Shown piece after piece: positions 16,001 through 31,000 of a DNA stretch of 64,000 nucleotides; positions within the stretch are counted from its first letter, which is position 1; each line of letters opens with the position of its first letter. Origin of the DNA: Procambarus clarkii (taxonomy: Eukaryota > Arthropoda > Malacostraca > Decapoda > Cambaridae). Location of the stretch: assembly GCF_040958095.1 (NCBI RefSeq), contig NC_091156.1, forward strand, positions 15,099,020 through 15,163,019. Reading direction: 5' to 3'. A program made the position numbers and the translations under genes. A model generated the notes under the pieces. The model made no database searches. It saw nothing but the letters and a program-made list of their open reading frames with translations, and was not told where the DNA came from.

Positions 16001-19000
16001 TTTAAACTCATGGAAGACCTGGGTAAATACTGGTTTTGAAAAAAGTTTCTTGATTTCAAATTACCGAATACAAATTTAATTAACTGAACTATAATTAATT
16101 TTTGAATTGTTAGTCATCTGTATCAGTCCTCAATGCACTCTCAAGAGCTTATCATTATCTCTGTGATACGGGGGGATCAGACTCTTACAGGAATTTCCCT
16201 TAAAGATATGATTAACACATCATGAAGTGCATGGAGGGTTTCCAGCGATTTATAATCAGATTAGAAGACAATGAATCCCGCCAACTCGACATCAATTCTG
16301 ATTGAACTTACCTACTTAAAATTATCTGCTAGATTAAGGACCTGCCCGAAACGCTGCGCGTACTAGTGGCTTTACAAGAATGTAAATACTGTACTATCCA
16401 ATGTATTCTCACAAACCCAATGTACCTTCTTGTATATATATAAATAAATAAATAAATAAATAGATATGCTATAAAAGCTGTCGGTTATTCTCCGAACATT
16501 TTGCATATCTAGGGAGATAAAGATGCCTGTCACAGTTCCTGTTGGTACAGAGATTAGCAGATAAATATTGTTGAGACACTCAGAGGTTAAGTAACTATTA
16601 AGGTAACATACAACGCTTAAAGGACTAGCAGGAGCAGACAAGAGCCTGTACTGAAAGTTGTTCTGCCGGACTACCACACGCGCGCACCAACACTTGAATT
16701 GCTTCTAGTTACTCTCTCTCATTTTAGCGTCTCGAACTGTGTATGCCTGAATATTTCCGCCCCATAACCTTATATACTTTACCGTGCTCCCCGTCGCTGC
16801 TTTGTTCTATAAGGTCTTACTGCTAGTGCAGGTGGTCATTGTCTTCCCTTACTACCACAAGATATTGGTGGAGGCACCTTCCTGAGGTGTCTCAAGGCAC
16901 AAGATCACACACAAGGAGCTACCTGAAGTGTCTCAAGGCACAAGATCACACACAAGGAGCTACTTGGCGTGTCTCAAGGCACAAGACCACACACAAGGAG
17001 CTACCTGAGGTGTCTCAAGGCACAAGACCACACACAAGGAGCTACCTGATGTGTCTCAAGGCACAAGACCACACACAAGGAGCTACCTGATGTGTCTCAA
17101 GGCACAAGACCACACACAAGGAGCTACCTGAGGTGTCTTAAGGCACAAGACCACACACAAGGAGCTACCTGATGTGTCTCAAGGCACAAGACCACACACA
17201 AGGAGCTACCTGAGGTGTCTCAAGGCACAAGACCACACACAAGGAGCTACCTGATGTGTCTTAAGGCACAAGACCACACACAAGGAGCTACCTGATGTGT
17301 CTTAAGGCACAAGACCACACACAAGGAGCTACCTGATGTGTCTTAAGGCACAAGACCACACACAAGGAGCTACCTGATGTGTCTCAAGGCACAAGACCAC
17401 ACACAAGGAGCTATCTGATGTGTCTCAAGGCACAAGACCACACACAAGGAGCTACCTGATGTGTCTTAAGGCACAAGACAGTAGTAGGGTGTAAGCGCTA
17501 CAGGGGATATTTTTTTTCTGGCCGAGGACCCCTGTGGGGTGTAAGCGCCACAGGTGATATTTTTTTTCAGACCAAATATCCCCTGTAGCGCTTGGGGGTT
17601 TTCAGGTCAAATATCATGCGTAGCGCTTCGGGGTTTTCAGGTCAGAAATATCGTGTGTAGCGCTTTAGGGTTTTCAGGCGAATTTGGGGAGTCACAGATT
17701 TAGAATTAGGGAATTCTTATAATGAAAAATAATGTCATACGAGTTTGCTAAAGTTCTTATGAGAAAAATAATTTCCGAGACATAGAAGTTTGTTAAGGCC
17801 TTATGGGACAAATTCAAATAACGTATGTAGCTCTTTAGGGCTTCCAGGAGAACTCTACGGACATATTTTACATGTTTTCAACTTACAAAATCGTCTATGT
17901 AAGCCTTAGTTATTCATATAAATTTAGAAAATCACCTGTGTAAGTCATTGTTTTCAGGGTTTCGTACATCACACCCCCCTCCCTCCCCCCTTACCTCGCA
18001 ATCTCTCGCGTCACCTTTATTTACTTTACGCCCGGACAGCCAGACCTCTTATCTTATGTTATCTTCTCATAATATCTCAACCGTCCCTCCTCTCTCTCTC
18101 TCTCTCGTTTCATTCAGTTCAACTATTTTCCAACATCGTATGTTTGCTCCTTTTCATTAAGCAAGTCAGTATGTTTGCTCCTTTTCATTAAGCAAGTCAG
18201 TTTTACACAAATAAATCATGTTAGTAAGCAAGTTCTAGCTCACGTTCCCCACCTTAGTCCCCTGTCGTATAAAGAATACTATCATTCCAATCCCTCTAAA
18301 ATTTAAAAATAATCATATTTCAAATGTAGTTCAATACAGTAATTAGTTACCAAGCTCCAGCTCTTGTCCTCCGCCTTAGCTCTCTCTCGTATCTTCGTTA
18401 GTATCAGTCCAATTTCCCTGAAATTTCTACCCTCTGTATTTCAGACATAGTTTAGTAAATGCAAACAATTATCAAACTCTAGCTCTTGTCCCCAGCTTAG
18501 TTCATTTGTACAAAATCATTAGTAACAGTCCAAATTCCCTGAGATTTTTAGCCTCTGTATTTCAGACACCGTAAATAAGATCAAAACAGTTACCAAGCTC
18601 CAGCTCTTGTCCTCCGCCTTAGCTCTCTCTCGTATCTTCGTTAGTAACAGATCAATTCCCCTGAAATTTCTACCCTCTGTATTTCAGACACCGTAAATAA
18701 AATCAAGTCAGTTATCGAGCTCCAGCTCTCGTCCCCGCCTTAATTCTCTTTCGTATCTTTGTAAATAACCCATCAATTTCCCTAAAATTAAAAGCAGACA
18801 TACTTCAAAGTTAGTAAATAAGATCAAGTCAGTTACTGAGCTCCAGCTCTCGTCCTCCCACCCTCTTCCACCCTCAAGTCTTTAACCCATCAATTTCCCT
18901 GAAATTTTTACCCTCTGTATTTCAGACATAGTAAATATGAAGTAAACAATTATAAAACTCTAGCTCTTGTCCTCTGTCCAAGTTCACTCCTGTAAATTCA

Positions 19001-28000: not shown

Positions 28001-31000
28001 TTGACTGGATAATAAGTTTAGTTGAGAAATGACGAAAGTGACTATGTTTCAGTTGATTGGCGAAAGATTTTTAGTTAAGAAGTTACAAGAAAGGTTTGTC
28101 TTTGTAAATTTGGAACTGAATGAAGTGTAGATTTGTTTAAGAACATGGCTGGTAGAACTATTAAGTTGACTACGAGAATTACTTTGACATAGTTTTTGCA
28201 AATAAAAACTTGGTGACTAAAATTGTTGAGGAAACTGTATTGCTGATGCTAATATTTGACAAAGAACTAGTTAGTGAATGGAAGAAACGAATTGGTTAAA
28301 AGAAACAAAGAACATAAAAAATTGAGGTTAAGTAGGGGAATGAACGCAGTGAACATACAGTGAACACAGAAAACATGTAAGAAAAAGTTGATGAATACAG
28401 TGAACATGCTGGGAATATGAACTTACAGAGAACATGAAAACATGATAAGGAGAATAGAGAATACAAAGAATGAACAATGGACTTGTGAAGAACATGGAGA
28501 ATATGACAAAGAATGTAGAAAACATGTAAGTGAAGGTGAAAAACGAAGTGATCTTGTGAGGAACATGAACTTGTAGAGGAACATGATTATTGACAAAGAA
28601 CACAAAATATGGAAGTTAGCATGAATATTGAGTATAAAAGTTGTAAAGAGAACATGTGATGAACATGAAAACATAGAAAATATGACTAGAATTTGTAGAG
28701 AAAGTAATGAGACTAAGAGAAAGATTACAGAAAAAATGGAGATACTTGTGAAAATATGAACTGAATGGGACTGTGAACATTTGTAGAACATGGAGTGAAC
28801 ACGGATGAGAATATGAAGAACACAGTGAATATAGAGAAAATATGCAAATACAGTATGATTATTGAAGGTTTTGATACGTTGGGGATGAGAAGGTAAGGGA
28901 GGGAAAGGGTAAGAGTTAAGCTGGAGACGGACTTGATCGAAAATATTTATGTCTGATGATCTAAGGCTGAGGGAATGGAGCTTGGTTAATGCCCTGATTA
29001 ATTTCACTACGTTAGAAAATAAGGTGATCTTAAATCTTAGGATGATTTAGTTGGAAATAAAGAACTTGTACAAAATGAACTAAGCTGGGGCACAAGAGTT
29101 GAAACTTGATAACTGAACTGGTTTTTATTTACTATGTCTGAAAATGTAGTTGGGTGTTTAAATCTCAGGGGGATTTGGACTGAGAGTAATGAATTTACAG
29201 GAGTGAACTTGGACAGAGGACAAGAGCTAGAGTTTTATAATTGTTTACTTCATATTTACTATGTCTGAAATACAGAGGGTAAAAATTTCAGGGAAATTGA
29301 TGGGTTAAAGACTTGAGGGTGGAAGAGGGTGGGAGGACGAGAGCTGGAGCTCAGTAACTGACTTGATCTTATTTACTAACTTTGAAGTATGTCTGCTTTT
29401 AATTTTAGGGAAATTGATGGGTTATTTACAAAGATACGAAAGAGAATTAAGGCGGGGACGAGAGCTGGAGCTCGATAACTGACTTGATTTTATTTACGGT
29501 GTCTGAAATACAGAGGGTAGAAATTTCAGGGGAATTGATCTGTTACTAACGAAGATACGAGAGAGAGCTAAGGCGGAGGACAAGAGCTGGAGCTTGGTAA
29601 CTGTTTTGATCTTATTTACGGTGTCTGAAATACAGAGGCTAAAAATCTCAGGGAATTTGGACTGTTACTAATGATTTTGTACAAATGAACTAAGCTGGGG
29701 ACAAGAGCTAGAGTTTGATAATTGTTTGCATTTACTAAACTATGTCTGAAATACAGAGGGTAGAAATTTCAGGGAAATTGGACTGATACTAACGAAGATA
29801 CGAGAGAGAGCTAAGGCGGAGGACAAGAGCTGGAGCTTGGTAACTAATTACTGTATTGAACTACATTTGAAATATGATTATTTTTAAATTTTAGAGGGAT
29901 TGGAATGATAGTATTCTTTATACGACAGGGGACTAAGGTGGGGAACGTGAGCTAGAACTTGCTTACTAACATGATTTATTTGTGTAAAACTGACTTGCTT
30001 AATGAAAAGGAGCAAACATACTGACTTGCTTAATGAAAAGGAGCAAACATACGATGTTGGAAAATAGTTGAACTGAATGAAACGAGAGAGAGAGAGAGAG
30101 GAGGGACGGTTGAGATATTATGAGAAGATAACATAAGATAAGAGGTCTGGCTGTCCGGGCGTAAAGTAAATAAAGGTGACGCGAGAGATTGCGAGGTAAG
30201 GGGGGAGGGAGGGGGGTGTGATGTACGAAACCCTGAAAACAATGACTTACACAGGTGATTTTCTAAATTTATATGAATAACTAAGGCTTTCATAGACGAT
30301 TTTGTAAGTTGAAAACATGTAAAATATGTCCGTAGAGTTCTCCTGGAAGCCCTAAAGAGCTACATACGTTATTTGAATTTGTCCCATAAGGCCTTAACAA
30401 ACTTCTATGTCTCGGAAATTATTTTTCTCATAAGAACTTTAGCAAACTCGTATGACATTATTTTTCATTATAAGAATTCCCTAATTCTAAATCTGTGACT
30501 CCCCAAATTCGCCTGAAAACCCTAAAGCGCTACACACGATATTTCTGACCTGAAAACCCCGAAGCGCTACGCATGATATTTGACCTGAAAACCCCCAAGC
30601 GCTACAGGGGATATTTGGTCTGAAAAAAAATATCACCTGTGGCGCTTACACCCCACAGGGGTCCTCGGCCAGAAAAAAAATATCCCCTGTAGCGCTTACA
30701 CCCTACTACTCAAGACCACACACAAGGAGCTATCTGATGTGTCTCAAGGCACAAGACCACACACAAGGAGCTACCTGATGTGTCTTAAGGCACAAGACCA
30801 CACACAAGGAGCTACCTGAAGTGTCTCAAGGCACAAGACCACACACAAGGAGCTACCTGAGGTGTCTCAAGGCACAAGATCACACACAAGGAGTTACCTG
30901 AGGTGTCTCAAGACACAAGACCACACACAAGGAGCTACCTGAAGTGTCTCAAGGCACAAGACCACACACAAGGAGCTACCTGATGTGTCTCAAGGCACAA

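Follow-up and report, generated by a model that had tools for sequence, protein, structure and literature searches.

The stretch of Procambarus clarkii DNA that we analyzed (hereafter the window; 64,000 nucleotides, G000:C7:15099020-15163019 of a 4.03-Gb assembly) contains a 13,231-bp palindrome that is, with little doubt, a satellite related to Maverick (Polinton) elements. It likely represents a non-autonomous, coding-less Maverick/Polinton satellite whose arms are equalized as a linear, protein-primed form of the element folds back during replication. The palindrome is one copy of a multicopy, apparently recently mobile family, and the palindromic state is common to diverged lineages of that family.

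Anatomy, copies and insertion sites of the palindrome

The left arm (17480–23903, plus strand) begins AGTAGTAGGG and is followed by a unique spacer, or loop, of 383 bp (23904–24286, plus strand) and by the right arm (24287–30710, minus strand), which is an inverted copy of the left. The arms pair over 6,424 bp with a single mismatch (T at 17900 versus A in the inverted right arm, position 30290), an inverted match that cannot be a product of chance. This re-comparison reproduced the arm length, the one difference and the spacer that the first-pass annotation had described from the sequence. Direct copies of CAAGAC (17474–17479 and 30711–30716, neither assigned a strand) flank the element in the junction comparison, and 6 bp is the only duplication length that fits when lengths of 2 to 24 are tried. 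The target is a 41-bp minisatellite, also without assigned strand, whose left part occupies 16881–17479 and which resumes at 30711–31269. The repeat runs in register once CAAGAC is counted once, as expected from the earlier proposal that the unit inserted as a whole.

Copies of the element are numerous. A genome-wide search located 58 exact matches to the 36-base end (28 forward, 30 reverse; none in the control), and these ends form 23 inward-facing pairs separated by 11,664–13,500 bp. Twelve exact ends lack an exact partner, although for three of them (C53, C22e and C46) the opposite end proved to be a variant; allowing up to three mismatches raises the number of ends to 184. Among the pairs listed, 39 of 41 and 32 of 34 are separated by 11.6–13.9 kb, the others by 8.0, 15.6, 6.9 and 11.5 kb. 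At C60, 4.5 kb separate two outward-facing ends (28995131 and 28999595), in each of which the terminal unit appears to be duplicated, and at C22 (16379873–16405437) two elements, the first of them C22e, are separated by just 362 bp.

For full comparison we sampled the window copy and 10 of the 14 other end pairs from the first search (11 copies). Mid-arm tests covered eight of the 18 listed mismatch pairs; C54, C4, C53 and C22e, also of the 18, were examined at both ends, and C46 was found via its single end. Most copies were chosen for matching at both ends, which favors intact copies. All 11 fully compared elements begin AGTAGTAGGGTGTAAGCG at both ends and are flanked by a perfect 6-bp duplication, each of its own sequence (in C89 after a 10-bp shift of the left end). 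With C16, C54, C4, C53, C22e and C46 included, the perfect 6-bp duplication is present in 17 of 17 elements checked at both junctions. Furthermore, when the flanks of C48 were joined with one copy of the duplication, all 40 scored places matched this sequence over its full length, 10 with 100% identity. C48 sits in a repeated sequence that looks like a retrotransposon, and the matches represent a related empty site for this copy. Three other copies (C44, C43 and C26) are near-identical sisters at three sites.

The interior of the element is also conserved. The spacer was matched over its full length at an identity of at least 99% in all 40 places scored, one of which is the window copy (the best 40 of 1,297 candidates). 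When arm-spacer-arm sequence was the query, the spacer was flanked by arm to the left and to the right in each of the 40 places scored, again including the window (the best 40 of 1,354 candidates), a ranking that puts palindromic places first. Ten of the 40 best spacer-only places recur with arm on both sides in the second search. The candidate numbers of these first searches (3202, 1297 and 1354) do not correspond to copy numbers, and a query of 134 bp of inner arm returned zero matches, the window itself included, so it tells nothing on palindromy.

The structure is known from the assembled sequence, which is the point in favor of an assembly artefact or a local inverted duplication. Misassembly of the region by fold-back is nonetheless unlikely because both flanks are the same strand of one minisatellite and because further copies share the anatomy with target duplications of their own. 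The many copies, the individual duplications of all 17 elements checked and the related empty site of C48 make an artefact or local duplication scarcely credible.

The arms and the spacer contain no recognized coding sequence. Degenerate tandem repeats with a wide range of periods fill the window arms, and no Pfam match was returned from six frames of the left arm plus spacer. Likewise, nine ORF (open reading frame) pieces of the Maverick element C16, introduced below, had no tblastn match in eleven left arms. The palindrome is filed on these grounds as a non-autonomous satellite rather than as a Maverick. A search of the window with Rfam at gathering level and for tRNAs found none. Elsewhere in the window, frames resembling, by eye, a LINE (long interspersed nuclear element) reverse transcriptase, RNase H and a zinc-knuckle ORF1 lie at 5215–8357, 35730–44516 and 62172–63998, and a GIY-YIG-like frame, also recognized by eye, at 38167–38790.

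Maverick partners and other known systems

We also identified gene-bearing partners of the palindrome in the same genome. Frames for protein-primed PolB (pPolB) gave 95 matches (91 of 1,428 candidates scored), and three elements enclosing such frames have ends related to those of the palindrome. The element C16 (C16:14774296-14787834; 13,539 bp) begins AGTAGTAGGG at both ends, is flanked by the duplication CCCCTT and contains ORFs matching DNA_pol_B_2, a Pox_A32-type ATPase and an integrase with rve and Chromo domains; no capsid family was matched among its ORFs. C16 was the one of the three examined for genes, and C54 and C4 enclose pPolB matches. C54 is 13,229 bp long with terminal inverted repeats (TIRs) of 919 bp, and C4 is 13,876 bp long with TIRs of about 1.0 kb; their ends differ from the window end at two of 34 bases. 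The homology extends inward over parts of the terminal ~0.7 kb of the left arm (17480–18215, plus strand) and of its inverted mirror in the right arm (29975–30710, minus strand), which ends CCCTACTACT. The main pieces of the C54 and C4 TIRs match this first ~0.7 kb at 74–90% (97% in the first 69 bp of C4), and the C16 TIR matches the arm at 90% over positions 275–627 and at 71% over positions 70–233. Partners with pPolB (and, in C16, an integrase), the same duplication length and related ends were thus found, as were other genomic copies and, for another copy, a related empty site. Together, the copies, duplications and pPolB elements support the first-pass view of a mobile, coding-less element related to Polinton/Maverick.

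Variant ends further connect the two kinds of element. The end variant of C54 is common to palindromes C19, C22c, C46a and C70 and to C16b. Similarly, C81b (13,526 bp), whose mid-element ORF pieces are 97–99% identical to C16, has an end variant common to palindromes C35b and C66. In C46, an end of the window type is combined with one of the C16 type; this copy has a single duplication (CAGAGG) and an interior identical at 601 of 601 positions. Because this hybrid-ended copy has a single duplication, the end types of the palindrome and of the C16 Maverick worked together in one insertion. The surroundings of a pPolB gene at C35 (7198500–7218300; frames of 1,253 amino acids) had no match to the arm end, and the ends of that element were not located. 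We dropped this stretch as a partner because it has no terminal sequence in common with the palindrome family; its gene group is possibly a second Maverick lineage. Among the viral contigs searched, the end motif had 0 matches, and 11 stretches fit a pattern in a search with a C-terminal piece of pPolB, none of them confirmed.

The ends agree with what has been described for Mavericks in vertebrates. Mavericks are described as having (AGT)2 // (ACT)2 or (AG)3 // (CT)3 ends, the commonest vertebrate end being (AGT)2 // (ACT)2 with a perfect 6-bp duplication (PMC8097293). The window ends (AGTAGTAGGG...CCCTACTACT) are of the (AGT)2 // (ACT)2 type. The palindrome also resembles Mavericks in its 6-bp duplication, its homologous terminal ~0.7 kb, its similar length and its presence in the same genome. 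However, it lacks genes, is palindromic throughout and has inverted repeats of 6.4 kb, and the pPolB, integrase, ATPase and capsid genes that define Maverick coding capacity were not recognized in the left arm plus spacer. By comparison, the inverted repeats of intact vertebrate Mavericks measure 46–1,447 bp (PMC8097293).

Other transposons with long inverted repeats or 6-bp duplications fit less well. Foldback elements (FB, Galileo, Tetris) are also non-coding and combine long TIRs, rich in internal tandem repeats, with a short middle domain, as described for Tetris (PMC4079207). It is therefore conceivable that the palindrome is a Foldback (Mutator- or P-related) transposon, with which it shares long tandem-repeat TIRs and the absence of coding. 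Yet its duplications are 6 bp instead of the 8–10 bp of Foldback elements such as Tetris, pPolB Mavericks match it in the ends and over the terminal 0.7 kb, and its arms are about 3.7 times the 1,735-bp TIRs that the same source gives for Tetris. We consider this origin highly improbable. IS3EU, GingerRoot and Dada elements also generate duplications of about 6 bp. IS3EU and GingerRoot were rejected for their termini (TA..TA in IS3EU, TA..TA or TG..CA in GingerRoot) versus the AGTAGTAGGG ends of the palindrome. Dada was rejected as well: Dada-U6 and Dada-U1 are described as without TIRs and Dada elements target small RNA genes, whereas the palindrome has TIRs and the window gave no Rfam match at gathering level and no tRNA.

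Arm identity within copies and between lineages

Ten of the 11 fully compared copies are palindromic over about 5.7–6.4 kb, and C86 over only 2.95 kb. In nine of the eleven (C89 and C86 left out), we counted 16 arm-to-arm mismatches in 54,811 bp (99.97% identity), several of them at the arm/spacer border. C89 has 14 arm mismatches, mostly in one patch. The 2,943 positions compared in C86 include 6 mismatches, and five of these lie at the inner border. Different copies can be aligned only in part, at about 90–98% identity and with many gaps and missing blocks; the exception is the sister group C44/C43/C26. Mid-arm pieces are identical within the copy (701 of 701 positions) in six of eight further pairs, the others being C16b, which is of the C86 type, and the pPolB element C81b. 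The same six pieces are only 70–86% identical to the arms of other copies, a rough figure taken from the longest alignments in arms with internal repeats.

The first 640 bp of the arms illustrate how tightly the two arms of a copy are coupled. At variable columns, the two arms concur in 1,127 element-cells and differ in 39; mismatches are missing from this region in nine of the 11 copies, and per-copy counts assign all but one of the discordant cells to C89. Re-paired arms had a mean of 303 disagreements and a minimum of 129 versus the 39 observed. Furthermore, a comparison of C44 with C40 revealed a mosaic of long stretches with 0.0% difference between stretches that differ by 3–6.5%. Given the agreement of the two arms within either copy, the mosaic pattern of one arm recurs in the other. 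The near-identity of arms within copies whose lineages have diverged means that one arm must overwrite the other repeatedly.

Such overwriting might take place in the chromosome. The arms of the large palindromes of mammalian Y chromosomes are kept alike by gene conversion, which is efficient in palindromes. The same Maverick satellite could thus have arms kept alike after insertion by chromosomal gene conversion between them, a reading compatible with arms at least 99.9% alike in most fully compared copies and with data that hold no demonstrably old copy. However, the copies look young, as judged from the perfect duplications in 17 of 17 elements and the sisters C44/C43/C26, and their arms were probably alike at insertion. 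Changes confined to one arm have also been left uncorrected (a 76-bp deletion in C44 and four mismatches in C99). In addition, the pPolB elements are near-equal over their short TIRs too (99.9% in C54, with 1 mismatch in 919; 99.1% in C16; 98.5% in C4). Duplications, fresh sister copies and one-arm changes all speak against chromosomal conversion as the sole cause, and we regard this alternative as unlikely. On balance, we favor an equalization tied to replication over one that operates in the chromosome.

Several observations weigh against the favored reading. The TIRs of C4 (offset by one ~50-bp terminal unit) and of C16 are less equal than those of C54. The arms of C89 have diverged at ~470–1320, with several indels, and are near-identical elsewhere. 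C22e has mid-arms at 96.3% identity, a centre at 97.4% and ends of different lineages within a perfect duplication (GAGGTC), and C46 combines unlike ends with a perfect interior. These two copies could be recombinants awaiting equalization or a sign that equalization is not obligatory. The arm-spacer-arm ranking introduces a sampling bias toward palindromic places, and conversion in situ would likewise give near-identical arms. The analysis of the genome sequence revealed no extrachromosomal form, terminal protein or transposition. Lastly, the arms beyond ~0.7 kb are without trace of Maverick genes in the tblastn comparison described above.

Proposed replication and possible origin of the palindromic state

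Fold-back replication would account for the arms as follows. The Maverick integrase would insert the palindrome, and the Maverick protein-primed polymerase would replicate it as a linear extrachromosomal molecule. A displaced single strand could then form a hairpin of ~6.4 kb with the spacer as its loop; alternatively, the nascent strand could switch onto its own arm. In either case, one arm would template or correct both arms in each cycle. The inverted terminal repeats of adenoviruses are corrected through panhandles, and the palindrome would be the limiting case. In this sense, it may be a Maverick whose terminal repeat grew to the whole element. The ends of adenovirus genomes carry a tandem trinucleotide used for jumping-back (PMC4974454), and the tandem AGT ends of the palindrome would fit such a start. 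On the strand that runs inward along the arm (17480–23903 and its mirror), GC skew is negative, with per-kb values of −0.05 to −0.56 that are weakest in the first kb. All eight full palindromes examined have this feature, as does C86 in its arm part. It might reflect exposure of one strand more than the other during replication.

Variant copies bear on how the palindromic state arose. C86 (21589498–21601577) has 2.95-kb arms around a ~6.2-kb middle with BIR (2.7e-14) and BIR plus RING (7.4e-10 and 1.3e-12) frames; further unannotated frames in this middle look paralogous by eye. C16b is 99.4% identical to C86 over a 701-bp mid piece. From its predicted domains, C86 appears to be a gene-carrying relative with an inhibitor-of-apoptosis-like gene. 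At similar total length, the inverted repeats form a series of 0.9–1.1 kb in the pPolB elements, 2.95 kb in C86 and 5.7–6.4 kb in the palindromes. This series fits an expansion of the repeat. C94 (927521–939184) is missing the usual spacer, and its arms turn round inside the arm on a 46-nt loop, a centre that either a new snap-back or a deletion would give. C77 (19891200–19904800) has a left end variant (AGTAGTAGGGAGGAAG), a window-type spacer and inner arm to the right of the spacer; the stretch where its right end was expected had no match in the element and resembles, by eye, a reverse transcriptase.

A single snap-back event could also have made the window copy, as the first-pass annotation implied when it derived the element by snap-back duplication of one end of a linear genome. 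Panhandle-type defective genomes of adenoviruses and other protein-primed replicons would likewise be linear molecules with both ends from one end and, in adenoviruses, a trinucleotide terminus. The anatomy of the palindrome fits this type, and the loop of C94 is as expected from a new snap-back. In contrast to defective genomes, the palindrome belongs to a heritable, integrated family of many copies with a conserved spacer. Palindromy is common to 10 of 11 fully compared copies, six of eight mid-arm copies and 40 of 40 scored places (in a ranking that favors such places). This family-wide state refutes a unique event in the window copy, which we therefore deem very improbable. Snap-back itself is retained as a good candidate for how the palindromic state arose and is kept.

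Descent via snap-back of a coding Maverick end is not established because the arms hold no trace of Maverick genes; the ends could instead have been captured. In that case an independent satellite would have acquired Maverick ends by recombination, and its arms would never have been part of a Maverick genome. The missing coding trace, the mosaics (C44 versus C40) and the combination of window-type spacer or inner arms with different ends, seen in C46 and at a single end of C77, are consistent with such a capture. Yet the homology reaches ~0.7 kb inward, which is most of the Maverick TIR, and C86 and C16b, with their 2.95-kb arms and, in C86, genes between them, look like an intermediate state. 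We give capture of the ends a low probability.

The elements could also share a constraint on length. A packaging limit may hold the length of the element, a tentative suggestion, and the similar length of gene-bearing and gene-less elements makes such a limit testable. Taken further, the palindrome could be a one-armed replicon, that is, a virion-borne Maverick satellite whose inverted repeat has grown to take in the whole element, that passes in each cycle through a full-length hairpin where one arm serves to template or correct the other, and whose length is held by the Maverick capsid. This extension is possible rather than probable; the abstract of the vertebrate survey (PMC8097293) states that Maverick particles are so far unobserved.

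The Maverick kind of element is already known; what is new is the palindromic state of a Maverick satellite and the equalization of arms within each copy. A palindromic Polinton was not noticed among the papers listed in full-text searches of the open literature or in passages of PMC6431247 and PMC12368964, a body of text that leaves most subscription journals and all bioRxiv preprints outside. The pattern of arm equalization would surprise specialists and bears on the replication of Mavericks. To our knowledge, their protein-primed replication has so far been inferred from genes. If, in one copy after another, each arm has been rewritten from its partner, the palindromes would be a physical record of the replication intermediate. 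Arm-to-arm differences would then date insertions as the differences between long terminal repeats (LTRs) do. The elements also place long inverted repeats, apparently of recent origin, at many loci, where they are likely to cause rearrangements, give rise to double-stranded RNA and complicate assembly. Finally, a one-armed replicon, if true, would provide genomic evidence for Maverick protein-primed strand displacement and packaging in an animal.

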